This document shows, one piece after another, positions 7,050 to 37,872 of a stretch of 64,000 bases of DNA. Source of the stretch: Umbilicaria muhlenbergii. Its lineage: Eukaryota; Ascomycota; Lecanoromycetes; Umbilicariales; Umbilicariaceae. The notes under the pieces were generated by a model. The model saw nothing but the letters and a program-made list of their open reading frames with translations. It was not told where the DNA came from and did not search any database. Made by a program: the position numbers and the translations under genes. The stretch is from NCBI GenBank assembly GCA_000611775.1, contig KK106982.1:2343343-2407342 (forward strand), given 5' to 3'. Numbering within the stretch: position 1 is the first letter of the stretch; every line of letters begins with the position of its first letter.

Positions 7050-8371
7050 GATGTGCAGAAAATATAAACAGCCTTTAATAATAAATTAAAAGAGTGCAGA
7101 AGGAAGTAATCAAGAAAGATTTAATTAATGTCATAAAAACACTTTTTCCTGATTTTTCTTAAGAGGTTTTACAGGTTTTATTAAGACCTTATAAGTGATT
7201 TACAGCAAGAGTCAAGAGTGACAAGTTCATTAAAGAAGATGAATCATCAGCAAAGCACAAGAGAATCATAATATTATTATCATCACAACAGCATACCTGA
7301 GCAAGGCAAAAGAAAAAAGAAACTATCATATAAAATTAACAAAACATCAGCAAATCATTATTTATTCATCTTTATCATCATTATTATTCTTTTTCTCTTC
7401 TTCATTCTTCTTCAGCTTCTTTAACTCCTCTGACTCCTCTGACTCCTTGAAAGGAGAAAAATCCTCATCATCATCATTATTGTCATCATCAACAAGAGCA
7501 GGCAAATACTTTTAAAATTGAATGCACATTAATTAATCATAACTGTCACAGCAAAGGTGAAGAGAAGGGGATTAAACTGAGTATTACATGATGTTCATGA
7601 TATTCTTAAGAGTGATGTTCATGTGCTTCAGTTACTCAAGAAGCAGCAAGTTAATTTTAATAATAAACTTAAATTTTAAGAGCTTCTGATTACAGCTGAT
7701 GACATGAAGGTGTGCTGTTATCTTTTTGTTGTAACACTTTTAACATACCTTGAGGGCGGTCAGGAGGGTAGGTGAAGAAGTGTTAATATTAACTTTATTA
7801 ATCAGATGAATCAAGGTGTTGACTTTGCATGTAAAGTGTAAGAAGACCTTAAATCATCAGTGAAGTATAATAATTAAGCAGGTTAAAATTACCTGTAAGC
7901 ATGCTTTATAAAAGTGTGTGCAGTATGTGCATTTTACATTCACTTGAGTGTCACAGACCTGCATGATATCTTCAGTAAAATAATGACTCAGTCATTGTTT
8001 TACTGAAGATATTGATACAGGCTGTATCAGAGACAAAATGACTCAATGAGTCATGCATAAGAATCAGCAGAGCATTTGATGATAAATGAATGTTATACAA
8101 TGCCTCACATTAAATGCACATGTGCAGAGTCAGCTTCTCTGACTTATAAGCATGATGACTGAAGTTGTGAAAATGATGATGAGCAGAGAAAGAGAATAAA
8201 GTGTGTTGATGTTATGAAGATGAATTGAAGCTCTCATAAAAGTTGATAATAGAAGATTAAGAAGTTGATAATATTTATATCTTGAAACTTTTATTATAAT
8301 ATCACTGCCTGTGATCTTGTTAAGCATAGATTAAATGTCATCCGCAACTTGGCAGCCTGCTCAAAAATAAG
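7050..8371. other. AT-rich stretch without a recognisable gene
   Basis: Downstream of the chromodomain no coding pattern is clear. The stretch contains a run rich in TCTTCATTCTTC and ATCATCATCATT around 7370-7490, a small CpG-bearing patch near 7750 (GGGCGGTCAGGAGGG), a cluster of perfect palindromes at 7966-8055, and an open minus-strand stretch at 8130-8327 that matches nothing I recognise. Part of it may be the 3' LTR of the preceding gypsy, which I could not pair. Confidence 0.35.
7966..8055. repeat. Cluster of palindromes
   Basis: A 15-bp perfect inverted repeat (ATATCTTCAGTAAAA at 7966-7980 and its complement at 7998-8012) encloses AATGACTCAGTCATT, itself nearly palindromic. Immediately after come TGATACAGGCTGTATCA (8013-8029) and TGACTCAATGAGTCA (about 8039-8053). 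The three nested or adjacent dyads within 90 bp could form cruciforms. They could also be the inner ends of a small element. Confidence 0.6.
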
Positions 8372-9440
8372 GTTTTAGTTAATAGTACTTTATGCGCTCA
8401 GAGCACTCTCTGAGCAGTAAATAAAATAATACAAATATTACACTTTAAATAACTATTATACCTTCATGAATAATAAAAAACTTTTTATTGAAAAGTTTTA
8501 GATCTCTTTATTCTGTACACTTTACAAACTAAAGATTTCTTCATAAGTTTTAATTTGCAATAGTTATGAATTAAAAAACTTTTAACTAATTATAAATATA
8601 TTAGCATATTGAATAACTATTGCGCTTTTATACTGATGATATAACTTTCAGTTTATAAGTTATAGAGAAGAAGCTATTAAACAGTTTTATAACTTAAAGT
8701 TTTCTTATAACTGTTGTTGTTAAAAAGTTACATTGATTTCAAACTTTCAGTGACAAAAATCACAATATTAATAAACAGACTTTTAATGACTTTTTGAATA
8801 ACTCAACAACAACAACACATAAAAAAAAACTTTGTATAAGAAAACTCTTAAACAGCTTATTCTCTACAACTTATAAACTAAAAGTTATATCATAAGTATA
8901 AAAGCGCAATAGTTATTCAAAGTATATGACTTTTTTTGAAAGATTTTTCGCTATTAAAAACTTGAATTAAATATAACTTAACAACAACAGCAGTTATAAA
9001 GAAACTTTTAATTTAACATTAATAAAAAATACTATTCTTTATAACTTATGCATTGAAAGTTTCTTCATATCTGTTGAGGTGCAAAAGTTATTAAAGTGTG
9101 TAAATTTTTAAGTGATGAAAATCTCGAAGTTCTTTAAATATTCAGAACTCAACACTTATACAGTGCTTTCAGACTCAACAAATCATGATTTTTGATTGCA
9201 GAAAAGTGAATTTTAGCAAAAGTTTACTTATTATAAATTTTACTGTTATTATAACACTGCGTGTGTACTTGTTTAAACAATTGTTTTGATAATTATTTTT
9301 TTATCACAAAATTTTGATGTTCTGCTCAAGATTTAAGGTTGAGCTCAAAGCGCTCAGAGGGTGCTAAGAGCGGCTGTTAGCTGAGACATGAGATCAGAAG
9401 CTCAGAGTGCTCAAAGTGCTAAAAATTAACTCAGAGTTAA
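8372..9440. mobile_element. Candidate inverted-repeat element, non-coding
   Basis: The ends are related in inverted orientation: AGTTAAT then TACTTT, GCTCAGAGCACTC and TCTGAGC near 8372-8420, against the complement of 9340-9438 (AGTTAAT, GCACTTT, GAGCACTCTGAGC and CTCTTAGCACCCTCTGAGC). No transposase frame is present. Inside are an 85-bp inverted repeat and two further direct copies of its core. CpGs (GCGC) are slightly commoner than in the flanks. I infer a non-autonomous element lying next to the minus-strand gypsy. The TSD is not resolved. Confidence 0.45.
8611..8918. repeat. 85-bp inverted repeat with 138-bp loop
   Basis: Arm 8611-8695 (starting GAATAACTATTGCGCTTTTA) pairs with 8834-8918, with about ten mismatches. 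Two further copies of the same core lie in direct orientation at about 8503-8570 and 9034-9092, so the motif occurs four times within 600 bp. This is the internal structure of the candidate element at 8372-9440. Confidence 0.7.
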
Positions 9441-9561
9441 CTTGCTAAATTACTGATGCAGCTGATTGTTCATGTACTTCTTGAATCAATCAGAGTCATA
9501 ACTTATTCTTATTTAAATCATTATTAACTTCTGAGACTCATACCTGTTTCTGATACAGTAA

Positions 9562-21151: not shown

Positions 21152-24143
21152 AAATATCTTCTTTCTCAAATCACTCATCACTGCAATTTCTGCATACACT
21201 TCTATTAATATGTCTTAATATGATAGTGACTTTTCTCTCTCAGAAGCAGAAGAAATTCTTATTTCTTTTTCATAATCACAAACCTCTCAGAAATCTGAGA
21301 ATGCTTAAATCTTACCTCATGCTTTTTAAAATCTATCATCACTTATTGCACTTCAATGCAACACTCTCAAGATACATGTTTTCTGAAAAAGTGACAAGTA
21401 ATATGTGAAACTCTTTTATGAGTGATGAAAGTCAACTTTACATGATCTTCACACTCATGATAAACTGAAAAATAATTTTAAATGAAGATTCATTACTTAG
21501 TCCTTCAACTACTGAAACTTGTTTAAGCAGGTCACAGTTATGTGAAGTGAAAAATTAAATTTATAATACAAGCTTTATCAAGCTGTCATCAATCACCTGA
21601 ATATGAAAAACACTGATTTCAACATTATGAAGAAGTATTTGCATTCAGACTGCTGCAAAATATCACTTAAGTGAAAGTATTCACAATCTACACTGAATGA
21701 ACTGTTACAGTCAACAGTAAATTTATTTCTTTTTATGTATTACTTTTCTTATCAGTATTAATGCTGAAAGTTAATGCTCTTATGATATTTCTTAGAAATG
21801 AACAGTACACAACCTTGACATTTTAATATACATGAAGAAAATCTTTAAACAGTAAATTATTAATGTATTTATATTTATGAACATCTTCTTCTGATTTATT
21901 GAGAATAAGCAGCTTCATATCACTCTTATAATGCTTTAAGATGACATTCAGATACCTTGTCACAATAAAATCTGAAACCTTATCACAAATCAATATCAAA
22001 AAGTGATGCTCACTGTATAAAAAAGTCTTGCTCAGACAAACAGTAAAGTGTTATTAACTTTAAATTATTAATCTCATAATCACTTATCCTTCTTGACGGT
22101 TACTGCTTATTATATTGATAATAACTGAAACTACAATGAGGCTTTATTGAGATTTGAGCATGTGAATGAGTTACATATTAAAGTCACTTTGACACATCAC
22201 GTCCTTAATGTCCTGAAGACATTTAAAATCAAGGACAAGCTCTTCACTATCATTATGAATAACATTGTTAATAACATTATTATGTGCACATATCTGAAGT
22301 CAGTCTTGAGCAGTGATCATGATATTCAATGAGATAATACTGAAATAATAATATCATGTATGACACATGTTTTAACTCTTGCTATCAAGGCTCTACTGAG
22401 GTCACTTGATGTAAACATTAAAAATGATCATCATGTGAAGATATAAAATGTGAACAAGTTGACAAAGATTCAAGAGAAGATATCTTTAATTAACATCATG
22501 CAAAAAGCAAGTGAAATGATAATACTTATTGATAATGCCTGAATGTTAACAACATGTGACAGATTTAATATCTCTCAATTGCAATCAACTTTTTCTCACA
22601 GAGATTCAAATGATTTGCAGATATTCAACAGCAAGTTTATGTAAACAGTTTAAATTAAAAACCTTTTTAAATGATTTAAAATATTAAGATGTGATGAAAT
22701 TTTACATATGACATGCTTTTTCAAGTTTATGTTTTATGAGAGACTCTGTGCAACTTTGTCCTTAATGAATAAGATAAAAAGCTCTGAGTTCTTATAATTA
22801 TTAATTTAGAATGAGAACAGATCTGTTATCTTTTAACATTATTAAAATCATTTAAAGATTGAACTGCAGCACTTTTAAAAATTATTAAAGTTACAATACA
22901 TAAGACCTGATATGTGTACAATTAACTCATTAATCACATTGCAGATCACTGCTGCTGAGTGCAGTTAAAAATCACTTTTTAAAAACATAAACTGATCACT
23001 GCCCTGAAAGCCTGCCAGGATAAGTTAAGGGATTATTATGAAAATTCACAGGCAAGTTAATGACAGATTTATAATCTTGCAACTGTTTTAAACCTGTCAT
23101 GTAAAATGATTAAGTATAAGGTAACTTCAATGCATATATTTGCTTAATCATGATTAATGCATCATAGGGGAAGGAAGTAACAAAATCTTAAGAAATTAAA
23201 TAAAATTAACAGTTTTAAGATTATTATAATTTACATTACTTAAAATATGAGAGTCTGATTATGAACTCAACTATCATTACAGGTCAATCACAGAATATGA
23301 ATTTTAATATATTAATTAAACAAACAGAGCTAAAAAATCAATGATGAACAGATATTTAAAATAATATCTTTAAGTATCTTTTCACATCAGTCAATTATGT
23401 CAATGATTCATTAAAGGTAATGCTCAAAGGTAATGCTGATATGAGGCTTAAGTTAATTATATTATTAAAGTGTGAAGTGTCAACTACAGTGATTTTAAAG
23501 GTTTTTTTTAAATGACAAGAAATGTTCTTACTGTATGTGTTTCTGAAGTAAACAAGAAATGCATTTTCAATATGATTAAAGATATCTGCAATTAATGATA
23601 TGAACATTTAAGCACTGAGATTATACATATGCTCTGTTTAATTAAGTATTATGAGTAAAACACCTTGTTGAATAACCTTGTTGATGATGATGACAATGAT
23701 GAAGAAGTCAATGTCTCTGAAACCTGAGCTCAAGAAGCCTCTGTTCTGAATGAGTTAATTATAACAGATGATAAGAAGACTTATGAGTTCATGAAGACAC
23801 TTTAATGAAGGAAGCTTACCTCTGTTAAGTGTAAAATAATGACAATAAACAATCATAATCATAATGAGTTCAACATGAATGATTTGAATGATATGAAAGT
23901 AAATGAACTTGCTGATATGCATCAGATGAGGGTAAAAATGAGGTAAAGTAATGATTTAAACACCTTTATTATGATTGAAGATGTGTTGAAGAGCAGAGGA
24001 TAAAATGATTTTAACATATTTTTATCATCTGATGACCTGATCACCTCCCTCACTTCAGCATGAATAAGTGAAGCTCAGAGAAGATCAACTGTAGTCAGTT
24101 GAAGCAAGCAATTTATGAATTCAACATATGAATGACACATCAT
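21152..24143 (+). mobile_element. hAT transposon, left copy, decayed
   Basis: Around 22085-22330 the plus strand reads FLTVTAYYIDNNWNYNEALL, then RFEHVNELHIKVTLTHHVLN, FKIKDKLFTIIMNN and NNIIMC. This is the hAT transposase core (LSVLGITAHFID, LGF----GSHTGENLA, FGI--KL--ITTDNASNN). The catalytic-core Asp of TTDN is changed to Asn. A putative intron lies at 21717-21795. The 2.9-kb length suits hAT elements. The same sequence recurs inverted at 26565-29554. TIRs and 8-bp duplications were not resolved. Confidence 0.8.
21717..21795 (+). other. Decayed intron in hAT gene
   Basis: The stretch runs from GTAAAT to TTCTTAG with AATGCTGAAAGTTAATGCTC near its 3' end. The inverted copy (28990 down to about 28912) has GTAAGT as donor but TTAA in place of the acceptor AG. 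Each arm thus keeps a different half of a canonical intron. The motif before the acceptor contains a CTAAC-like branch site in decayed form. Confidence 0.55.
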
Positions 24144-24155
24144 TATCAGCATCAG

Positions 24156-24488
24156 TTTTTTATTTTTTTTATTTCTTCATTAAGTGTATGCAGTCTAAGA
24201 CTATGACACTGACTAGTAATTTAACAATACATTTGTGAGAGAAAACTCTCTAGTCAACTTATTTTGTCAATTTTTTTGATGGCTGCTATTGGTGTCAGAA
24301 TTGCATAATTTTAAATATTTCTTTTAATATCTCCTCAACTCTCTTCCTGATTTTCATCCTCACTCTCTCTCAATGTTTGTGAAAGCTGATCATGCGTAAT
24401 AGGCTTTCAAAGTCATGTTTAAGTTAATGTTTGTGAAGATTAACCATGCATAATGAGCTTCTGAAGTCAACGTTTGAGGCAATGTGTG
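24156..24488 (-). mobile_element. 5'-truncated LINE insertion with poly(A), 333 bp
   Basis: The segment begins on the plus strand with a T-rich run (the poly(A) tail of a minus-strand insert) and ends within LINE 3' sequence; its minus strand matches the tails at 34840-35060 (AACTTAATGAAGAAATAAA, GGATGAAAATCAGGAAG). It is flanked by TATCAGCATCAG at 24144-24155 and 24489-24500. The right palindrome arm has a single TATCAGCATCAG complement at 26553-26564 and no insert, so this is an empty-site comparison. Within it a segment ending TTTCACAAACATT is repeated. Confidence 0.9.
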
Positions 24489-24500
24489 TATCAGCATCAG

Positions 24501-25008
24501 TCAATCAGTATTGTTGTCTGCAGATCAACACTGAGTTGTGTTATGAAATCAGCTACAAATACAGTCTGTAGAGTTAAAAAAAATATATATACAATCATCA
24601 CAAATTCTAAATAGACATTACCTTTGAGCATTATTTTTTTAACATATCATGTTTTTCTTTATATTTGCACAGTGCTCACAATGTATAATATCAATCTTTG
24701 TGAATTAATAATTCAATTACAAATATATAAAAGTATTCAATTATCACAATACTTATCTTTGATAACAACATAATGCAAAGCTGTGATAATATAAGAAGAA
24801 AAGTGATGTTATTACTTATATTAAATTTACTACTATTATGATGACTAAGCAATTTTAACTGTATATGATTAGTTCAGTGTTCATATGAGTACCTCAAGGT
24901 TGACTTAATTAATCACTGAATATCAGGTCTGTGAAGGAGTTAAACTTATAAATTAAGTTTTTAATCATTGACTTGACCTGACCTGACTCAAATGACAGCC
25001 TAGCAAAT
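24501..25008. other. Inner part of left palindrome arm
   Basis: It is non-coding and matches 26048-26552 inverted. It contains the motif pair TAATGCTCAAAGGTAATG in complement near 24620-24640; the right arm has one more 13-bp unit here (26405-26440). It is probably the 3' untranslated and subterminal part of the hAT element. Confidence 0.5.
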
Positions 25009-26047
25009 AGATTATCACACTTAAGTCAACTCACAGACTTATTAAATCAAGATTAAACAGAAGGAAGAAAACAAAAATCTGCAATTAATGCAGTATTAAC
25101 CTTAACACATGATATAGAATCAGCTAAAAATAAAGGTAATACTTTATCATGTTTATTACTGAACATCAAAGGAGCTTTTAATCATGTGTCACTACTGCAG
25201 TTAATTTCAATTATGAAGAAATTAAAATTATCAGTACAAATACAATCATGAACAAAATCCTTTTTAGAAAATAAAAAATCAGGATTAGCCTTTGATGATA
25301 AAAGATAAAAAATGCAAAATATTAAAACAGGAATTTCACAAGGATTATTAATATCCTCAATACTGTTTTTGATATATATAAGGCATTTATTCTCAAAAAT
25401 CAAAGCTAAATTTTCAGATATAAAAAAACTCAGCTATATAGATGATGTGACATTATATATCACTGAAAAATCAGCTGCAGAAAATTGCTTAAAGTTATAA
25501 TCAACAGCTGAAACAGCATTTTCATAAGCAGAAGAAAACACAGTACAGTTTAATAACAATAAATTTAAATTAATTCACTTTGAAAAGTCTAGAAAATCTG
25601 CGGAAAATAGCATTACATTATCAAATGACACAGTGATTAAATCAGTAAAAGAAGTCAAGTGGTTAAATATTTAACTAAACAGAAAACTAAATTTTAAAAC
25701 ACATATTTGAAAAAAGGTTTCCACAGCAACTAAAGTATTACACTTAATAAATAAATTAATAAATTCAGAATGAGGCCTTTCTGCTAAAAATGCAAAACAA
25801 CTTTATCAAGCATATATAATATCAATCAGTGACTATGAATCAGAAATCTGATGAAAAAACCAAAAAAGCTATGTACAGCAATTAGAAAAATTGCAAAACT
25901 CAGCTTTACATAAGATTTTAAAAGTCTTTAAACCTTCTTTCAAAGCTGCAATGGAAATTGAAGCAAATATTCAATCAGTACAGGTCAAATTAAACAAAAA
26001 ATGCAGAAAATATGCATTAAAGATTATAATCTTGTCAGAAATAAGCT
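25009..26047 (+). mobile_element. LINE fragment, reverse-transcriptase region
   Basis: The plus strand reads LLLNIKGAFNHVSLLQLISI, GISQGLLISSILFLIYIRHL and LSYIDDVTLYI, the fungal Tad/I-like LINE RT blocks (DIKGAFDHV, GIPQGSPLSPILF, YVDD). YIDD is intact. It continues to VKWLNI, QLYQAYIISISDYESEIW and an end near CRKYALKI. There is no 5' end, RNase H or tail, so it is cut at both sides, exactly where the hAT arms begin. Related C-terminal halves lie at 33.8-36.3 kb. Confidence 0.8.
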
Positions 26048-26552
26048 GTCATTTGAGTCAGGTCAGGTCAGATTGATGATTAAGAATCTGATTTACAGAT
26101 TCAGCCCCTTCACAGACCTGATATTCAGTGATCAATCAGGTCAACTCTGAGGTACTCATGTGAACACTGAATTAATCATATACAGTTAAAATTGCTTAGT
26201 CATCATAACAATAATAAGTTTAATATAAGTAATAACATCACTTTTCTTCTCATGTTATCACAGCTTTGCATTGTGTTGTTATTGAAGACAGGTATTGTGA
26301 TAATTGAATACTTTTACATATTTTTAATTGAATTATTAATCTGCAAAGACTGATATTATACATTGTGAGCACTGTGCAAACAAAAAGAAAAACATAATAT
26401 GATAAAAAAGTAATGCTCAAAGGTAATGCTCAAAGGTAATGTTTATTTAGAATTTGTGATGACTGTATACTTTTTTTAACTTTGCAGACTGTATCTGTAA
26501 CTGATCTCATAATGTAACCTAATGTTGATCTGCAGACAGCAATACTGATTGA
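26048..26552. other. Inner part of right palindrome arm
   Basis: This is the complement of 24501-25008. It holds three tandem starts of the 13-bp unit AATGCTCAAAGGT at 26405-26440, where the left arm has two, so unit number changed after the arms separated. No coding capacity. Confidence 0.5.
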
Positions 26553-26564
26553 CTGATGCTGATA

Positions 26565-29554
26565 ATGATGCATTGCTCATATGTTGAATTCATAAGTTGC
26601 TTGCTTTAACTGACTGCAGTTAATCTTCTTCAAGCTTCACTTCTTCATGCTGAAGTGAAGGAGGTCATCAGGTCATTAAATGATAAAAACATGTTAAAAT
26701 CATCTTACCCTCTGCTCTTTAATACATCTTCAATTGTAATAAAAGTGTTTAAGTCATCACTCTGCTTCATTTTCACCCTCATCTGATGCATATCAGCAAG
26801 TTCATCTACTCTCATATCATTCAAATCATTCATGTCAGACTCATCATGATTATCACTGTTCATTGTCACTGTTTTACACTTAACAGAGGTAAGCTTCCTT
26901 CATTGAAGTGTCTTCATGAACTCATAAATCTCCTCATCATCTGTTATAATTAACTCATTCAGAACAGAGGCTTCTCAAGCTCAGGTTTCAGAGATGCTGA
27001 CTTCCTCATCATTGTCATCATCATCAATGAGGTCATTCAACAAGGTGTTTTATTCATAATATTTGATTAAACAGAGCATATGTATAGTCTCAGTGCTCAG
27101 ATGTTCACATCATCAATTGCAGATGTCTTTAATCATATTAAAGATGCATTTCATGTCTACTTCAGAGGCACATACAGCAAGAACATCTCTTGTCATCTGA
27201 GAGAAACCTTTGAGGTCACTGTAGTTGACACTTCACATCTAGTGATGTAATTAACTCAAGCCTCATATCAGCATTACCTTTGAGCATTATCTTTAGTGAA
27301 TCATTGACATAATTGACTGATATGAAAAGATATTTAAAGATATCATCTTGAATATCTGTTCATCATTGATCCTTCAACTTCATCTGTTTAATTAATGCAT
27401 TAAGATTCATATTCTGTGATCAACCTGCAGCAGTAGTTGAGTTCATAGTCAGACTCTCATATTTTAAGTAATGTAGATCATAGTAGTCTTGAAACTGTTG
27501 ATTTTACTTAATTTCTTAAGATTTTGTTACTTCCTTCCCTTATGATGCATTAGTCATGATCAAGCAGATATATGCATTAAAGTTATCTTATACTTAATCA
27601 TCTTACATGACAGGTTTAAAACAGTTGTAAGATTATAAATCTGTTGTTGACTTGCCTGTGAACTTTCATAATAATCCCTCAACTTATCCTGACAGGCTTT
27701 CAGGGCAGTGATCAGTTCATATTTTCAAAGAGTGATTTTTAACTGCACTCAGCAGCAGTGATCTGCAATGTGATTAATGAGTTGATTATAAACATATCAG
27801 ATCTTATGTATTGTAACTTTAATAATTTTTGAAAGTGCTGCAGTTCAGTCTTTAAATGATTTTAATAATGTCAAAAGATAACAGACCTGTTTTCATTCTG
27901 AATTAATGATTATAAGAACTCAGAGCTTTCTATCTTGTTCATTAAAGACAAAGTTGCGCAGGGCCTCTCATAGAACATAAGTTTAAAGAAGCATGTCATA
28001 TGTGAAATTTCATCACATCTTGACATTCTGAATCATTCAAAGAGGTTTTTAATTTAAGTTGTCTGCATAAACTTGCTGTTGAATATCTGCAAATCATTTA
28101 AATCTCTGTGAGGAAGAGTTGATTACAATTGAGAGATACTGAATCTGTCACATGTTGTTAACATTCAGGCATTATCAATGAGCATTATCATTTCACTTGC
28201 CTTTTGCATGATGTTAATCAAAGATATCTTCTCTTGAATCTTTGTCAACTTGTCTGCATTTCATATCTTCACATGATGATCATTTCTGATGTTCACATCA
28301 AGTGATCTCAGTAAAGCCTTGACAGCAAGAGCTAGAACATGTGTCATGCATGATATTATTACTTCAGCATTGTCTCATTGAATATCATGATCATCACTTA
28401 AGACTGACTTCAGATGTGTGCACATAATGATGTTATTAAAGATGTTATCTGTAATGATAATGAAGAGCTTGTTCTTGATTTTAAAGATCTTCAGAACATT
28501 AAGAATGTGACCTGTTAAAATGACTTCAATATGTGACTCATTTACATGCTCAAATCTCAATAAAGCCTCATTGTAGTTTCAGTTATTATCAATGTAATAA
28601 GCAGTAACCGCCAAGAAGGATAAGTGATTATGAGATCAACAATTTAAAGTTAATGACATTTTACTGTTTGTCTGAGCAAGACTCTTTTATACAGTGAGCA
28701 TCACTTTTTGATATTGATCTGTGACAAGGTTTCAGATTTTATTGCAGCAAGATATCTGAATGTCATCTTGAAGCATCATAAGAGTGATATGAAGCTGCTT
28801 GTTCTCAATGAATTGAAAGAAGGTGTTCATAAATATGAGTGCATTAATGATTTACTGTTCAAAGGTTTTCTTCATGTATATCAGAATGTCAAGGTTGTGT
28901 ACTGTTCATTTTTAAGAAATATCATAAGAGTATTAACTTTCAGCATTAATACTGATAAGAAAGATAATACATAAAAAGAAACAAACTTACTGTTGATCAC
29001 AACAGTTCATTCAGTGTAGATTGTAAATGCTTTCACTTAAATGATATCTTGCAGCAGTTTAAATGTAAATGCTTCTTCATAATGCTGAAATCAGTGTTCT
29101 TCATATTCAGGTGACTGATGACAGCTTGATAAAGTTTACATTGTAAGTTTAACTTTTCACTCTGCATGACTGCAATCTGCTCAAACAGGTTTCAGTAGTT
29201 GAAGGATTAAGTAGTGAATCTTCATTTAAAATTACCTTTCAGTTTGTCATGAGTGTGAAGATCATGTAGAGTTGACTTTCATCACTCATGAAAGAGTTTC
29301 ACATATCACTTGTCACTTTTTCAGAAAACGTGTGTCTTGAGAGTGTTGCATTGAAGTGTAATAAGTGATGATAGATTTCAAAGAACATGAGGTAAGATTT
29401 AAGCATCCTCAGATTTCTGAGAGGTTTATGATTATGAAAAAAAAATAAGAATTTCTTCTGCTTCTGAGAGAGAAAAGTCACTATCATATTAAAACATATT
29501 GATAGAAGTGTATGCAGAAATTGCAGTGATGAATGATTTGAGAAAGAAGATATT
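26565..29554 (-). mobile_element. hAT transposon, right copy, decayed
   Basis: This is the inverted counterpart of 21152-24143. The minus strand at 28560-28375 reads RFEHVNESHIEVILTGHILN, FKIKNKLFIIITDN and NNIIMC, where TDN of the hAT core is kept (the left copy has MNN). At 29486-29299 both copies share SQKQKKFL and LRNLRMLKSYLM. The two copies have decayed at different positions, which helps recover the ancestral reading. The putative intron donor at 28990 is intact GTAAGT. Confidence 0.8.
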
Positions 29555-30180
29555 GTTGTGTAGAGAATAATTACACTTATATGCATATCAAAAGAGATGT
29601 CAGATAAATATGTTACACAGAAAACCTTTTTTACTCTTGAAAAATAATGCTGAAAGATAATGATCAAGACATGTGTATGAGGCATGTGTAACTCTGCAGT
29701 GTAATTGAACAGATATCAGATTGCATGTACTTTGTGTTAAAACATCTCTTTGCTCATCAAAGATAATCACTGCGTTATGTGTAACCCTGCAGTATTAATA
29801 TTTGATCACATTTATGATGCATGAAAAAGCTTGTTTGTGCAACAAAGATGATGATCATCTTATAAATAATCTTGCAGTGACTTATGACAGTCTGTTAAAA
29901 AATATTAAACTCATTCATCTTCAACTTATAAGATCAAGTAATTGAAAAGATGCTAAAAATCATGAAAATGAAAAAAGTTGTGAAACAGCTGTGATTAGAT
30001 GAAATTTAAGATTTCAACATACTACTCACTTTAATAAGAATAATCATATGCTAAGAGGAACACATCCTCTCATTACAGACTCATGACTTTAATTTTCATG
30101 TTAAAGCATGATATTATGCATCAATGAAAGTGAGCAAACAGTAATGTCAGTAGATAACACCTGAACTTATTATATAAATG
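29555..30180. other. Unassigned AT-rich stretch
   Basis: No domain is recognisable on either strand. A single AATGCTGAAAGATAATG motif lies at about 29648. The stretch separates the palindrome from the decayed gene on the minus strand at 30.2-31.4 kb. Confidence 0.3.
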
Positions 30181-30523
30181 TGCAGTTAATAAAAAAAGAT
30201 TAAACTTCAGCTTCTTCTTCTGATGCAGATGCCTCCTCATACTTCAATTTTAAACTCTCATTTTTTTTAATATCATTCACCACAAAGTCCTCCTCATTAT
30301 ACATCAATAAGTTTTTCATGAAAAGCTCATGATCTGTTATTGAATCATTCTCTGACACTTTAATAATTTTTTTCTTAATCAGCACTTCCTTCTTCACTGA
30401 TTTTTTAATCATATAAATATTGTTCTTAGCCTTCAGATCATCCTTCAACTCATTAACATCACATGCAATGTATGCAGGAAAATGAAGATCTTTTTAAAAG
30501 TTTATAAACTTCTTTTTCAGGTT

Positions 30524-30588
30524 CTGTATTCATGTTAAAATCAAGCTCATCAGCATTACCTTCAGGCATTACCTCAGAGCCGGCTTAC
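30524..30588 (-). other. Putative intron in decayed acidic gene
   Basis: 65 nt from GTAAGCC to TACAG, containing GGTAATGCCTGAAGGTAATG. Splicing removes an in-frame stop region and joins YELL-K to NLKKKF. The same motif is found in introns of the H3-like and hAT genes. Confidence 0.4.
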
Positions 30589-30754
30589 TTCAATAACTCA
30601 TAATCAGCATGATATATCAGTAATTCAAGAAACTGCATAATTGAAACATTATGTTTAAAAATTACCTCTTCAATCTCCTCTGACATTTATACTCATTGAT
30701 CAGTAGATAATGTCAGTAAGTAATGCTTATATCTGCTTATCTTCTTCTCTTCAT

Positions 30755-30880
30755 CATCAGCATCAGCGTCATCATCATCTTTGTCATCATCTTTGTCATC
30801 ATCTTTGTCATCATCTTCATCATCATCTTTATTCTCTTCATCATCATCTTCATTCTCTTCATCATCAATATTAATGTCTT
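30755..30880. repeat. TCATCATCTTTG-type simple repeat
   Basis: Repeats of TCATCATCTTTG and TCATCATCTTCA (12-bp register) encode the Asp-Lys/Glu tract of the minus-strand pseudogene. The plus-strand frame here (Ile/Phe-rich) is only its shadow. Confidence 0.75.
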
Positions 30881-31890
30881 CATCATTGTTGTTCCTCTTA
30901 TTGATGCATGTTAAATTCTGCTTGATTTTGCTACTCTTTCACAGCAAGGTTTGAAGGAACTCATCTTTTACATTTTCACACTTAAAGATAATCTCATTTC
31001 AAATACTCATGAGATTTTGTTTAAGTCATTTCATTATAAGTGTAAATAACTTGTAAAATGAGCATTATTTATCAACTTTACCTGACAACTTCTTCTTGAA
31101 ACATTTCACAGACTTAACTTCTCAGGCATTCTTCAACAAGACTTGATGTTCATCATGATTCATTTCATTTCAACCTGATGTTATCTTTTATATTTTTCAG
31201 TGACATTTCAACTTAGCCTGCTCATCTGTGTTTCTAGCACGTGCAATTATAGTTTAATTGTCAGTTTTATTATAGCACTTTTGCTGCTTTCTGATCATGT
31301 TTTCATGCTGATTATATTCACTGAGGTGCTTTTGCAGAGTGATTAACATAACATTTATCTTATGTCAATCTGCTCACTGAGGTGTGATAGGTAGATTAAT
31401 CATGATGAAGTGAAGAAAAAACTTAATTGCATCATTATTACATAAGTTAACAATCTGTCTCTTATGATGTGAGTATTATCTTTGATCATTACCTTGCTTC
31501 TGACATAAAAGAGTGAGGAGGCGGGTGATTAAATGTACTGATGAAGAAGTGATGTGAGCTAAACAGTAAGTGTTAATAATTGTCATTATCATTGACATGT
31601 GAGCAGTACCTGAAGAAATGAGACATGCTGTTAAATGATGAAGAAGAATGAATGTTGAAGAGAGTTAATATGCACAGCTGATAAGTTGTTCTTTAACTTG
31701 TAAATTTTGATACTGAGGCTTATGTGATTAAGAGCGCTGCTAGACAGGATCTGATGTTGATATTAATTTACAACATTACTTAAATGATGAGGTGAAGTGC
31801 AAATCAAATGATGATAACATGAGCAGAAGTGAGTTGCACAAGGAATGTTTATATTTATGTATTTCAATCATGTTTTTGAAAACTTATGTT

Positions 31891-31982
31891 GATATCACAG
31901 CATCTCACCTCTGCAGTGAATGCACTGAAAGTTAAATATTAATGTCACAACATCTCACCTCTACAGTGAATGCACTGAAAGT
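31891..31982. repeat. Direct repeat, 50-bp period, two copies
   Basis: 31891-31932 and 31941-31982 share CATCTCACCTCTGCAGTGAA-type sequence and differ by a few transitions (CAGCATC/CAACATC, CTGCAG/CTACAG). Confidence 0.75.
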
Positions 31983-32374
31983 ATTATGTTAATTTGACAA
32001 CTTGACTACAGATGTGAAATCTGCAGCTGATCATGTTCTTCTTTTCATGCACTTTAACATCCTCCTTTTACATCTCATTATTGAAGTTTCAGTTAAGTAA
32101 TGCTTCTAGATAACATCTGCAGTATTTATTCATGCTGACAAAGATTTGCTTCTCTTCAGATCTTCAAGCTCTGCATACTTTCCTCATTATTTTCAACACA
32201 TGTTTTTCATGTTGTCCTTCATCTAAATACCTGTCAGTTAAATAATGCTCATAAATAATGTCTGCATTCATTTTTGATGATTGATATTCTATTATCTTCA
32301 GATCTTACATGCCTTTTTGATATACTTCTTCATCTTTGATATATTTTCTCAACTTCAATGCATCTCATCACCTT

Positions 32375-32480
32375 CAGCAAACTCATCACCTTCAACACAT
32401 TTCATCACCTTCAGAACTCATCACCTTCAACACACTTCATCATCTTTAATACATTCAATCACCTTCAACTCACTCTGTCA
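32375..32480. repeat. CATCACCTTCA minisatellite
   Basis: Degenerate tandem units of roughly 16-22 bp built on CTCATCACCTTCAACACA occur five or six times. The plus-strand open stretch over them (32281-32544) is low-complexity and not considered a gene. Confidence 0.65.
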
Positions 32481-32870
32481 CAATCATTACTCTTTATCAT
32501 ATTCAACATACTTCTTTGATGCACCTCTTGCCTCTTCTAGCTAGTCATACACCTTTATCACTTTTCACAAGTATAGTTAGACAAGTCAACACTCATAGTA
32601 ATGCTGAAAGCTAATGTCTACTAAGTAATTGAAGTATGATGTGTATCAAGAGTGAAGTCAGACATCTGTCAGTTGTCTCTCCTCCTTTTAAAGATGAGCT
32701 TCATCAAGTTGAAAAGTCAGTGAAGATTTACAAATCATCAAAGAATAAAGCTGCAGAGAAGCATCAGAAAGATTTAACACAATAATGATTAATTGTATAA
32801 TCTGCACCTCAAGGAAAAGGACCTGCTCACTCAGAGCAGTTAAAGATTTTGTGAAAGATTAAGTCAGAAA

Positions 32871-32921
32871 GTAAGTTTCTCATATTAATTGATAATGTCA
32901 AAAGTTAATGCTCTTTTGCAG
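32871..32921 (+). other. Intron 1 of H3-like pseudogene
   Basis: 51 nt, GTAAGT...TTTTGCAG. It restores the frame across the H3 PGT/ALREI block in phase 1. It contains AATGTCAAAAGTTAATGCTC just before the acceptor. Confidence 0.7.
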
Positions 32922-33125
32922 TGAAAGCCCTTCATGAAATTAAACATTATCAACTTATGAAAGAGCTGCTTATTCTGAAAACTGCATTTCAACATTTAAT
33001 ACATGAAATCATGATTGATCTGCCAGGCATGCAGAACATTAATGTTAAAAAAATATGTTGACAGAAGACTGCTCTGCTGATGTTGCAGAAGTCAACAGAG
33101 ATGTTGTTGATTTCATTTTTTAAGA

Positions 33126-33175
33126 GTAAGTTGTCTGAAATACAAAGTAATGCTAAAGTTAATGCCCTCATGCAG
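33126..33175 (+). other. Intron 2 of H3-like pseudogene
   Basis: 50 nt, GTAAGT...CATGCAG. Splicing joins LISFFK to NINLLIIHEK, as in the H3 LFEDTNLCAIHAK block. It contains GTAATGCTAAAGTTAATGCC before the acceptor. Confidence 0.7.
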
Positions 33176-33791
33176 ATATCAATTTGCTCATCATTCATGA
33201 AAAGTGAGTCATTATTCAGAGTAAGAATATGATCTTAACAAAACATCTCTTGCTTCTTGATTCAGGTGAAAATCTTGTGTCATATATCATTGAAATGCAG
33301 GATTCAAGGGCCATACCTGCTTCAAGACAGCATGATGACTGAAGAAGTAATGTCAAATGATAATGTCTAAATTGTTTCTGTAGGATAAGATACTAATGTA
33401 GTAATAAGAACATGAAACTTAAACTGAGATCACTCTGACCTGCATAAGTGATAACCTTAATGCGCAAAAGTAAAGTTTTAACCCTTGTGTGAATAGAATG
33501 CATCATGTATAAAGGCTTAGTGAATCCTGCAGGACTCTCAGTGTTTTACTTTATTACTCACTCTGACCTGACATGTCAAGGTGAGTTCAAAATCACTGAG
33601 ACACTGTCACTCAACTCAGCTTGACTCAGCCTGACTCAGTGTCACCCTGACCCGCGGTGACAGTCTAGTCAGAAAATCACTGTATCAAGCAAAGAATACT
33701 CACTTCATTTTCATCAGAATTACAAATAGACCAAGACATACTTATAATGATAAATTTCTAAACTGAAATCAAAATACTAAATAGTATATTT

Positions 33792-35063
33792 ATATTAATA
33801 TCATCAGGGCAGGTAGAAAAGTTTATTATAGTTTAAAAATCATGATTACAAATTAATACACAGATTGCGGATATTTAAGTTTTAATAAAAACAAAAGAAA
33901 TCATAATTAAAAAACACTTTGTTCAAGTAAAGCATTTAATTGCCTGTAACACATCAGTCTTTTACACTGATGAGTCAAAAATCAGTGTAAATACAACACA
34001 AAGCACAAAAAACCACATAGAAGTCAGAGTATACTGCATAAAAGACAATTACATAAATACAAAAAGCTACATTTTAGACTGTTACACTAAAGTAATAGAT
34101 GCGGAGCTTTATGCTATAATGCAGGCTACAAAACAAGTAATTTAAAGACAGTTTTTAGGAAAAAACATCTGAATATTTACAGATAGTCAAACTGCAATAC
34201 AAAAATTATAAAAACCTGCAAATACTGAAGTGCTATAACAAATTCAGTCAAATCTACAGCAATTACAGCAAAGTTAAAAGCTAATTCATATACACTGAAT
34301 TCTCAGTCATAGCCAAATACCAGGAAATAAATTAGCAGATAAAGCAGTTAAACAAGAAGCTTTAAACTCAGAAAATGCAATTATTAATGCAAACTCAAGG
34401 CATATTTTTTTATCATATATCAAAAAAGATATTGAGGAAATTGCTAAAGAGGAATAATTAATAAAATGACAAAATGCAAATCAAGGACAGTAATATAAGA
34501 CATATGTTACAAGACTTAATCTAATCATAAAGTCAAATGAATTATACAAATATGAAAGATTAACCTTTACAATATTTACACAATTAAAATTAAGATATGA
34601 CTATTTTAAGTTATATCTTTACAGATTACCTACATATGAAAATAATCAATGTTTTCAATGTAAGGTAAAATAGTCATCAGAGCATTTACTGTTAAATTGC
34701 AGGCAGTATAAACAAGAGCAGCAAGAGTTAAAACAGGAAATACAAAAAGCAAGATTCACACAATTAACATTACAGTCATTACTTTGTACAAAGGAAGGAA
34801 TTAAAAATACTTTAGTATTTTTAAAACACACAGAAATAACTACACGGAAGTGACTTTTAAAGGGGGTTAAGGATGAAAATCAGGAAGTAGAGTGAGGAGA
34901 TATTAAAAGAAATATTTAAAAATGTGTAATTCTGACATCAATAGCAGTCACAAAAGAAATTGACAAAACAAGTTAAATTGAGGTAATAAATACCTCACAT
35001 ATATAGAATACACAGTGTTATAGTTTTAAACTACATACACTTAATGAAGAAATAAATAAAAAA
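33792..35063 (+). mobile_element. LINE 3' half with RNase H, copy 1
   Basis: The plus strand reads VFYTDESKISVNTT (RNase H first Asp), DAELYAIMQATKQVI (Glu block), IFTDSQTAIQKL and HSPGN-like sequence. It then has a C-terminal knuckle-like segment (CFQCKVK, SEHLLLNCRQY) and a poly(A)-like AAATAAATAAAAAAA end at about 35060. It is the C-terminal part of the same LINE family as 25009-26047. It is 5'-truncated and broken by TAA codons. Confidence 0.8.
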
Positions 35064-36325
35064 ATATTAATATCATTAAAGCAAGTAGAAAGATCTATTA
35101 TAATTTAAAAATCATGATTGCAAATTAATACACAGATTGCAGATATTCAAGTTTTAATAAAAAAAATTACAATTAAAAAACACTTTACTTAAGTAAAGTA
35201 ATTAATTACCTGCAAAATATCAGTCTTTTACATTGATGAGTTAAAAATCAATGTAAATACAATACAAATCACAAAAAACCACATAGAAGCTGAAGTTTAC
35301 TATATAAAAAATAATCACACAAGTACAAAAAGTTACTTTTTAAGTTGTTACACTGAAATAGTTGATGCAGAGCTTTATGCTATAATGTAAATTATAAAAC
35401 AGGCAGTTTAAAGATAATTTACAGAAAAAACATCTGAATATTTACAAATAGTTAAACTGCAATATAAAAATTATAAAAATCTGCAAATACAGAAGTTCTG
35501 CAACAAATTTAATTAAATCTACAAGAAGTACAGCAAAATCAAAAGTTAATTCATATACATTAAATTTTTAGTTATAGTCAAATATCAGGAAATGAATTAA
35601 CAGATAAAGCAGTCAAACAAGAAGTTTTAAACTTAAAAAATGCAATTATTAATGCAGACTTTAAGTGTATTTCTTTATCTTATATCAAAAAAGATATTAA
35701 GGAAGTTGCTAAAAAAGAATGATTAATAAAATAACAAAATACAAATTAAGAACAGTAATATAAAACATATATTATAAAACTTAACTTAATTATAAAGTCA
35801 AAAGAATTATACAAATGTGAAAGATTAACCTTTACAATATTTACACAAATAAAATTAAGATATAATTATTTTAAATCATATCTTTACAAATTACTTACAT
35901 ATGAAAATAATTAATATTTTCAGTGTAAGATAAAATAATCATCAAAGTATTTACTGTTAAATTGCAGACAATATAAACAAGAGCAGCAGAAATTAAAAGA
36001 AAAAATGTAAAAAGTAAATTTCATACAATTAATATTATAAACATTATTATGCACAAAGAAAGAAATTAAAAATACTTTGATATTTCTAAAACACATAAAA
36101 ATAATCACATAAAAGTGACTTTTAAAGAGGGTTAAGGATGAAAATCAAGAAGTAAGATAAGAAAATATCAAAAAAATATTTTAAAAATATGTAATTTTAA
36201 CATCAATAGCAGTCACAAAAGAAATTGACAAAACAAATTAACTTAAGGTAATAAATACTTCATATATATAATATAACACATTGTCATAGTCTTAGACTGC
36301 ATATACTTAATGAAGAAATAAAATA
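35064..36325 (+). mobile_element. LINE 3' half, copy 2, more heavily mutated
   Basis: Starts with the same ATATTAATATCAT as copy 1 and follows it for its whole length (offset 1272 bp), ending ACTTAATGAAGAAATAAAA. Compared with copy 1 it shows extra C-to-T and G-to-A changes, many at CpA/TpG (CAACAC to CAATAC, AGTCAAA to AGTTAAA). The RNase H blocks are still aligned but broken. Head-to-tail arrangement with no intervening DNA is noteworthy. Confidence 0.8.
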
Positions 36326-37124
36326 ATAACTTAAATATATTATTTTTAAACCAATTTAAGTCAATTAATCTTTAATTTAAATAACATACTATATCAAACT
36401 TAATTTTATAAGTTGTTAAGTAAAAGTAGTTAAAGATATTAAACTGTAAATTAACTTTATTAAACACATAATTTAATAATTATAAACTCTTAAAACTTAA
36501 CTTTATATAAAATTTAAATAAGTATTACTTACTCAGCACTGATAAAGTTAAAAATATTAATAGATAAATAAATAAATATTTATAATAATTTATATAAAAC
36601 AAAATTATATAAGTAAAAAGAAATATATATATTAATTAAACTTTAACTGTTTATTTATAATTATTATTGCATAAATAATTTATACTTGTTGTAATACTTT
36701 AAAGTAAATATATAATTTTATATTTTATTTATAAAAAAATACTAGTTCTGATCTACTTTAATATAAATTAAAGTATTTGAAACTAAATAAAATATTAATC
36801 TGAGTAAAGATAAAATAAGAGGTTAAGAACTTTATAAGAAGTTTAATTGAGAAGAATGTTGATATTCTTAATGTTGACCTTACTGAGTGAGTTAATGCAT
36901 GTTATGAATATAGAGTCCCCAGGACTTTTTTATATACTCAAGCAGTCAGGTGAACTCTAAGAATAAACTTTATGCATGTCAGTAAGAGCAGTTACTAGGT
37001 AGCACAAAGTGTGCGGGGAACCTTGTCAAAATCATTATCGTCATCCCAGTGTGTGAGGCTTCATAAACGCTCAATATCATCTGAAAGCCTCTCCCCGCCA
37101 TATGCCCCCTCTTTCACCGTCAAA
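36326..37124. other. Very AT-rich DNA, then transition to normal DNA
   Basis: 36326-36830 is almost only A and T and holds no readable gene. Base composition recovers between about 36830 and 37010. GC-normal sequence with CpG begins just upstream of the zinc-finger gene; its promoter must lie in 36.85-37.12 kb. No TATA-like or other element is decisive. Confidence 0.5.
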
Positions 37125-37872
37125 ATGAGCCACTGTGACCCCTGCGGTCGTTCCTTTTCAAATCACAATTCCCTCGTGCAACATCTCAGCACATCATCTC
37201 GACACACATGGTGTGATAGATGCCAGAAATCCTTCAACTCCTTCTCAGCCAAGCAACAGCATCTCATCAGCTCTTCAAGCCATCACATCTGCACGAGATG
37301 TTCTAATCGGCCAGACTTCAGGTCTGAAGATGACTTGGATGAGCACCTAACAAGTGTCCACTATTACTGCAGTCCCTGTGATGATTACTTTAGCAACGCC
37401 GCGCGGTTGATCAGTCATGACGTTGCTGTGCATAACCTCTGTGAGACCTGCAAAACCTACTTTAACACTCCACAGAATCTTAAAGCGGTAGGTGCAATAT
37501 ACATTACTCTGTTCATGATCTACAGTTAACGCCCGGCAGCATGACCTAACGCACAAGGCAAAGACCATCGAGTGTTACGGCTGCAACGATAAATTTGTCT
37601 CTGTGTCAGCGATGATGCTTCACCTTGAATCTGGCTTCTGCGAATGCAAGATTGAGCGCGATAGGATCGTGGAGTTGGCCTTCGAGTGCCATCAGTCGAG
37701 GCACTATACCACCGACGACGAACACTACCCGTTTCAATGTTCAGGTTGCGACAGTCAATTTGGCAGCATAAGCTCCCTCCTCCAGCACACTGAGAGTGAC
37801 TATTGTGATGAGGTAGTCACGTCCAAGAGTCCACTGAGGAAATTCCTGCAGTTTCTTGAAACAAGAGTCTAA
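37125..37872 (+). CDS. C2H2 zinc-finger protein, two exons, 231 aa
   Basis: Exons 37125-37487 and 37540-37872 are joined by a 52-nt intron (GTAGGT...GGCAG) that splits a finger and restores LKAHDLTH. The start ATG at 37125 (TCAAAATGAG) begins MSHCDPCGRSF. Seven finger-like units follow: CDPC, CDRC, CTRC, CSPC, CETC, CYGC and CSGC; the last two end in Cys (ESGFC, ESDYC) instead of the second His. Such multi-finger proteins are widespread in Pezizomycotina, probably nucleic-acid binding, with no assigned function. The gene is free of stops and of CpG loss although flanked on both sides by heavily mutated DNA. The reading could extend 5' in frame without a clear ATG. Confidence 0.75.

Follow-up and report, generated by a model that had tools for sequence, protein, structure and literature searches.

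How does a histone H3 gene, broken by stop codons, come to lie among transposons, and whose gene was it? Histones are usually regarded as proteins of the host, with a part in transposon silencing. In a 64,000-nucleotide stretch of the Umbilicaria muhlenbergii genome (contig KK106982.1, positions 2,343,343 to 2,407,342; here called the window), a first-pass annotation made from the sequence alone had described a decayed H3- or CENP-A-like pseudogene within a transposon zone. It offered three explanations: a dead copy of the gene for the centromeric histone, a captured gene on a mobile element, or an unusual H3 variant family. The second and third of these have proved the best.

A Decayed Histone H3-Like Gene

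The stretch 32690-33342 was examined in three frames, and its part from 32922 to 33342 on the plus strand is confirmed as an H3-like histone gene (H3L) that is mutated and contains an intron of 50 nt. When spliced, with stops read as X, it matches the Pfam Histone profile PF00125 at 38.8 bits (1.3e-9; the cut-off is 26.4 bits), and the best match in a PDB search (E 5.9e-11) is to chains named histone H3. The proposal of a decayed gene with an H3 fold among transposons is thereby borne out. Without splicing, the score lies below the cut-off, at 20.4 bits for the frame through the element and 25.8 bits in the genome search; only removal of the intron at 33126-33175 brings the H3 blocks into one frame. 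Four other H3L types that were scanned score 69.7-77.0 bits. Chance is ruled out as an explanation because related readings occur at dozens of places in the genome.

Both predicted introns had been said to join H3 blocks in frame. This is right for intron 2, and the first junction, SE-M-KALHEI, is as the sequence gives it, but exon 1 is uncertain and, like the tail, poorly defined. An ATG at 32694, near the start first proposed, is out of frame with exon 2. The acceptor of intron 1 falls at codon 45, in phase 1, in all six H3L types, and its AG is kept in 14 of 14 copies of the window's own family (family A). Intron 2 has the donor GT in nine of these copies and AT in five, and the acceptor CAG in all 14. 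The extension past the normal C-terminal end of H3, previously put at roughly 25 residues, is about 25-30 residues long and was found in 14/14 family-A copies read. In two copies of family B (L012 and L032), exon 1 encodes by eye an Ala/Lys-rich tail (AKAKAKA), unlike the canonical H3 tail.

Table 1. Features of the hAT element and its H3-like gene, in window coordinates.
Feature	Position	Strand	Remarks
Family-A hAT transposon with H3L	26042..33667		7,626 bp; repeat bounds from genome DNA search, ends and target-site duplication read
Target-site duplication, left	26034..26041		GTCAGAAA
Target-site duplication, right	33668..33675		GTCAGAAA; perfect 8-bp match to left
Left terminal inverted repeat	26042..26062	+	TAAGCTGTCATTTGAGTCAGG; other copies TAGGCTGTCA...
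Right terminal inverted repeat	33646..33667	-	TAGACTGTCACCGCGGGTCAGG on minus strand; imperfect match to left
Probable decayed hAT dimerisation region	26933..27202	-	Weak: A vs B 0.001, A vs C 0.002
Decayed hAT transposase, second block	27572..28135	-	A vs B 2e-13, A vs C 2.8e-13
Decayed hAT transposase, core block	28231..28878	-	A vs B 5.8e-27
H3L tentative exon 1	32639..32870	+	By eye; Lys-rich, several stops, without recognisable H3 tail
H3L predicted intron 1	about 32871-32921	+	Donor read in window only
H3L exon 2	32922..33125	+	Histone fold, KALHEIKHYQ to LISFFK
H3L intron 2	33126..33175	+	50 nt, phase 1 in codon 106; donor GTAAGT, acceptor CAG
H3L exon 3	33176..33342	+	C-terminal extension and terminal TGA
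Partial inverted second copy of hAT family	21153..25003	-	Inverted repeats; hAT tblastn match 21844-22398, 4e-8

The Element That Carries the Gene

What kind of transposon surrounds the H3L? The gene lies near the right end of a repeat (Table 1) that, judged from its sequence, has the marks of a hAT element: an 8-bp target-site duplication, terminal inverted repeats (TIRs) and similarity to hAT transposase. The ends of hAT elements are short terminal inverted repeats beginning TAG or CAG, and TAGGCTGTCA is found at both ends of family A. In a genome DNA search, seven of 38 matches cover almost the complete element, the match in the window being one of them. Both ends were read in six near-complete A copies, that of the window among them. 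Five of these are flanked by 8-bp duplications, perfect in four and with one C/T mismatch in the fifth; the remaining copy (C4:725451) lacks a duplication and is apparently recombined. Two other copies for which the ends were retrieved (C7:502252 and C3:1259578) are truncated on the right side. The locus L035 contains a related repeat without the hAT insertion: its positions 7750-8787 correspond to window 25004-26041 and 7756-6322 to 33669-35064, with an overlap of 7 bases. A Helitron was also considered, as the right end (a hairpin, then CTAG) resembled a Helitron terminus; it is ruled out by the TIRs, the similarity to hAT transposase and the 8-bp target-site duplication.

By eye, readings of the minus strand at 28.1-28.7 kb resembled hAT transposase. 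When one copy each of three families of the element (A, B and C) was compared in six frames, transposase matches reached 6e-27 and H3L matches 1e-11; the control, one shuffled sequence per pair, gave 0 matches. The same genome holds a 785-residue open hAT frame (L065), at a site with a 64-bit Pfam dimerisation match. This frame matches A at 1e-7 (28863-28309), B at 2e-11 and C at 4e-6, always on the opposite strand to H3L. The hAT dimerisation profile PF05699 gave 25 matches in the genome, 13 of them 2.9-5.6 kb from an H3L and on the opposite strand; all 13 belong to families B and C, eight exceed the Pfam cut-off, and no match of this search lies near any A copy. Nine pieces of A, those from the transposase included, gave no hAT Pfam match, and the core transposase piece of A had no match in the PDB. 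Six-frame Pfam searches of A, of a 4.9-kb part of one B copy and of the 10 kb surrounding one C copy returned the histone and weak sub-threshold matches only. The Pfam hAT-like RNase-H profile had 0 matches in the genome and likewise 0 in the controls, so that it carries no weight. Beyond a low-complexity acidic stretch, the six-frame comparison found no central ORF common to A, B and C.

Three Families and Six Types of H3L

The genome of the window (34.8 Mb in 7 contigs) was searched for relatives. The Pfam histone search gave 44 matches. Of these, 35 belong to loci of family A, B or C, and one to a divergent locus, L037. The other eight are ordinary histone-fold genes, which we take to be H3, cenH3 (two matches), H2A-, H2A.Z-, NF-YC-, CENP-T- and TAF6-like genes. 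The DNA that flanks the gene is also repeated, as the first-pass annotation had thought worth checking. A search with 1.1 kb around the H3L, in which 40 of 89 candidates were scored so that counts are lower bounds, found at least 43 matches including itself; at least 29, the window among them, cover at least 1,000 bp, and the other 28 long ones are 83-93% identical to the H3L region of the window.

The H3L-bearing copies fall into three hAT families (A, B and C) and six H3L types (A, B, C1, C2, C3a and C3b). Family A comprises the window, L038 and 13 other copies, of which 14 were compared, L038 being left out. Sixteen copies were read for B (L022 is without exon 3), three for C1, four for C2, five for C3a and four for C3b; L037 was left out of the type counts. 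One C element, from C2:6621253 to C2:6632496, measures 11,244 bp between inverted ends (TACGCTGCA and TACACTGCA) and carries four H3L genes, with every C type represented once. At this copy no matching target-site duplication was found (TTCAAAAT vs CAATGATG), and for family B the left end was not found. Two stretches of family C on contigs C1 and C5 (L013 2877-5980 and L014 2426-5529; 3.1 kb) are 99.5% identical, far closer than other C copies, and are probably a recent duplication.

Decay by RIP or a RIP-Like Process

How did the copies die? Within types, the exons differ almost entirely by transitions: the ratio of transitions to transversions is 24:0 in A (2 copies), 269:1 in B (16 copies), 31:3 in C1, 50:1 in C2, 71:0 in C3a and 56:2 in C3b. 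Of 149 sites that vary among the 14 A copies, 143 are of the C-to-T type (C-to-T or G-to-A); the C precedes A at 73 of these sites, T at 52, C at 15 and G at 3, and hardly any CpG is left in the A copies as a target for mutation. CpG stands at 0.06 of expectation in the window element, where CpA is not depleted, and at 85-99% of expectation in the gene-rich right part of the window. By these substitution patterns, the copies are inactivated by RIP or a RIP-like process. The stop at 33059 is present in 14/14 A copies read, and the H3L of family A might have been dead before the family spread.

Introns and the Origin of H3L

Was the gene taken up as a transcript? An intron of 47-54 nt in phase 1 of codon 106 is present in all six H3L types. 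The host H3 gene has introns at codons 8, 44 and 120 and none at codon 106; the host cenH3, in our own reading, has one intron just before the REIAL stretch and one N-terminal, and likewise lacks the one at codon 106. The H3Ls are not transcript copies, because this intron is common to six types and absent from host H3 and cenH3. A processed (retro)copy of H3 is thus ruled out by the codon-106 intron in all six types, together with the predicted intron at codon 45. Across 34 copies, the donor of intron 2 is GT in 26 and AT in eight, and the acceptor AG in 25, AA in eight and a gap in one. Apart from the gap, all departures from the splice-site consensus are G-to-A, the same change as elsewhere in the copies.

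The first H3L intron, at codon 45, lies one codon from the host H3 intron at codon 44 and may be that intron, shifted; by this proximity, it is quite possible that a genomic H3 gene was captured. The conserved introns, taken with the sequence, suggest that the H3L had a function in the transposon and was more than a gene picked up by accident.

H3 or CENP-A?

The first-pass annotation favoured a CENP-A-type protein, pointing to a long loop 1 and a Trp-Gln position. A longer loop 1 with a Trp before Gln is a feature of cenH3. The longer loop is real in A and B, but loop length varies among the H3L types, and C1 and C2 have the loop length of H3. In family A, the Trp is deduced solely from the stop column at 33059 (TGA in 6 and TAA in 8 of 14 copies), which is compatible with a Trp codon and no proof of it.

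With one copy per type compared, the amino-acid identities to host H3 and host cenH3 are 44% and 34% for A, 46% and 43% for B, 53% and 45% for C1, 54% and 47% for C2, 48% and 46% for C3a, and 46% and 43% for C3b. All six types are closer to H3, narrowly so for B and C3. The best 60 of 178 PDB matches are named H3 or "histone domain-containing", with no CENP-A among those 60. In a protein tree that included pieces of human H3 and CENP-A, and in which RIP distorts the amino acids, all H3Ls are separated from a group of cellular H3 and CENP-A that has 98% support; support inside the H3Ls is 36-66%, except for C3a with C3b (100%). In a two-letter tree, H3 and cenH3 are joined at only 75%.

If the gene for the centromeric histone (CENP-A/cenH3) had been duplicated, inactivated and spread by transposons, this could account for the longer loop of A and B and for the stop column. 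The host cenH3 is, however, intact elsewhere (L010), and the differing intron positions, the identities, the PDB matches and the tree speak against a CENP-A pseudogene; the H3 loop length of C1 and C2 also speaks against it. We consider such an origin very improbable.

Probable Constraint on the Encoded Protein

Was the H3L protein maintained by selection? RIP does not produce transversions. Between A and B they number 28, 15 and 31 at codon positions 1, 2 and 3; the counts are 11, 6 and 18 between C1 and C2, and 2, 3 and 6 between C3a and C3b. Pooled, 55 of 120 fall at position 3, where a third is expected (p=0.003); the A-B pair by itself has a weak excess (31 of 74). Second codon positions have the fewest transversions in the pooled pairs, as under protein-level constraint. 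In the transposase, A and B differ by 131, 114 and 184 transversions at the three positions over 486 codons. Second positions of the H3L have changed less than those of the transposase (15/97 vs 114/486), and first positions no more slowly (28/97 vs 131/486). Transversions private to one type (A 5, 5, 4; C3a 7, 9, 6) show no third-position excess in a count that is biased against position 3, and they give no support for constraint. Protein-level constraint on the H3L is likely, not proved, and part of it could be older than the capture.

A Resident Gene or a Passenger?

The reading that we favour, with a probability of about 0.6, is a RIP-inactivated hAT element with a long-resident H3L, which while the element was alive would have been expressed as an H3 variant, perhaps on the chromatin of the element or its target. 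Long ago, an intron-containing H3 gene would have entered a hAT lineage, to be kept and duplicated there. It would have stayed while the lineage split into A, B and C, multiplying to four genes in one C element. The two recognisable genes of the element point apart, the transposase on the minus strand at the left and the H3L on the plus strand at the right. The H3L would probably have been transcribed, spliced and made as an H3 variant, and might have been deposited together with H4 on chromatin of the element itself or of its target, providing accessibility or an escape from silencing based on the H3 tail. Repeat-targeted cytosine mutation would then have killed the copies. The proposed chromatin role, in which for example nucleosomes of the element would lack silencing marks, we infer from what H3 does. 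That a hAT lineage kept, duplicated and diversified its own H3 variants for permissive chromatin or resistance to silencing, and so encoded a functional histone, is a more tentative proposal, for which the odds appear somewhat short of even.

Could the gene have been a mere passenger? A hAT element may have taken up host H3 sequence by chance (transduplication), to be amplified and mutated without ever serving the element. There is a precedent in Pseudocercospora fijiensis, for which a transcript or retrocopy is proposed in the published description (PMC6710886). The A, B and C copies read are all broken or RIP-mutated, the H3L is nearer to host H3 than to cenH3, and the private transversions are without third-position excess, all of which fits a passenger. 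Capture of a mature transcript, however, is ruled out here by the codon-106 intron; moreover, three families in one genome keep this intron and have slower second codon positions, and a single element bears four H3L genes. On balance, passive capture seems doubtful. It overlaps with the idea that different hAT families independently captured intron-bearing genomic copies of H3, and our estimates for the two are not exclusive. The DNA of A, B and C is very different, C3 is rather distant from the other types, and the proximity of the first intron to that of host H3 would also fit several captures. Yet all types share an intron that this host's H3 does not have, and the layout is the same throughout, with transposase and H3L on opposite strands. 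Several captures seem improbable, less so than a cenH3 origin and more so than passive capture.

Relation to Published Elements

H3L-bearing hAT elements have already been published, and the present case is, judged from the published descriptions, of the same kind: like them, the window element has an H3-like gene between TIRs together with a transposase. According to the available account of Pyrenophora tritici-repentis (Manning et al. 2013, PMC3538342), a hAT transposase and an H3-like gene lie between TIRs in an element whose long form is 5.6 kb; the 26 H3L copies are nearly identical, only two are frameshifted, ESTs are reported, and the gene is neither H3 nor cenH3 in the authors' view. 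That element has a central ORF, for which there is no convincing counterpart here; the Umbilicaria element differs further in its RIP-mutated copies, its three families and the four H3Ls in one element.

A histone-H3-carrying hAT family has also been described in Pseudocercospora fijiensis and five other Mycosphaerellaceae (Dhillon et al. 2019, PMC6710886). The family has hundreds of H3-like copies, and its element, as portrayed in that paper, is 9.5 kb long with one or two H3Ls, an intron-less transcript capture and CpA-type RIP. It resembles the present one in its hAT nature, 8-bp target-site duplication, RIP-killed H3-like copies, AT-rich blocks and intact original H3. In contrast, introns are present here, CpG is almost gone and CpA is not depleted. 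The shared intron and the codon-position pattern argue against an accidental transcript capture, the P. fijiensis reading, for this genome.

In Stagonospora (Parastagonospora) nodorum, the RIP-degraded repeat R25 has similarity to histone H3 and weak similarity to a DNA transposon, and was reclassified as an endogenous gene region (Hane and Oliver 2010, PMC3017866). Unlike the present element, R25 is not treated there, in the text available, as a hAT with an H3L. From the published description, R25 is probably an H3-like gene in a hAT transposon.

What does the Umbilicaria element add? A shared intron across H3L types, four H3Ls in one element and a codon-position test that is insensitive to RIP are contributed here; in the portions of the open-licence literature covered, no shared intron across H3L families, four-H3L element or test of this kind was found. 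If a transposon lineage does keep its own H3 variants under selection, mobile elements would have a means of acting on chromatin that is new. If the H3L was functional, the scattered published cases would represent one old lineage of histone-encoding transposons.

Neighbouring Repeats

Between the two hAT copies of the window lies a 1,038-bp repeat (25004-26041), which occurs elsewhere with the same ends. The element itself is inserted inside another repeat (33669-36329) that has an internal duplication with a spacing of 1.27 kb; an RNase H-like (LINE-like) reading was recognised in it by eye, and it had no Pfam match in three plus-strand frames. A repeat of ~1.1 kb at 8337-9458, with no Pfam domain in the one frame tried, has copies of about 96% identity in L034 and L035; they are closer to it than the hAT copies are to each other, and the repeat is perhaps younger. 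At 37011-37529, where AT-rich DNA borders gene-rich DNA, there is an open C2H2 zinc-finger reading.
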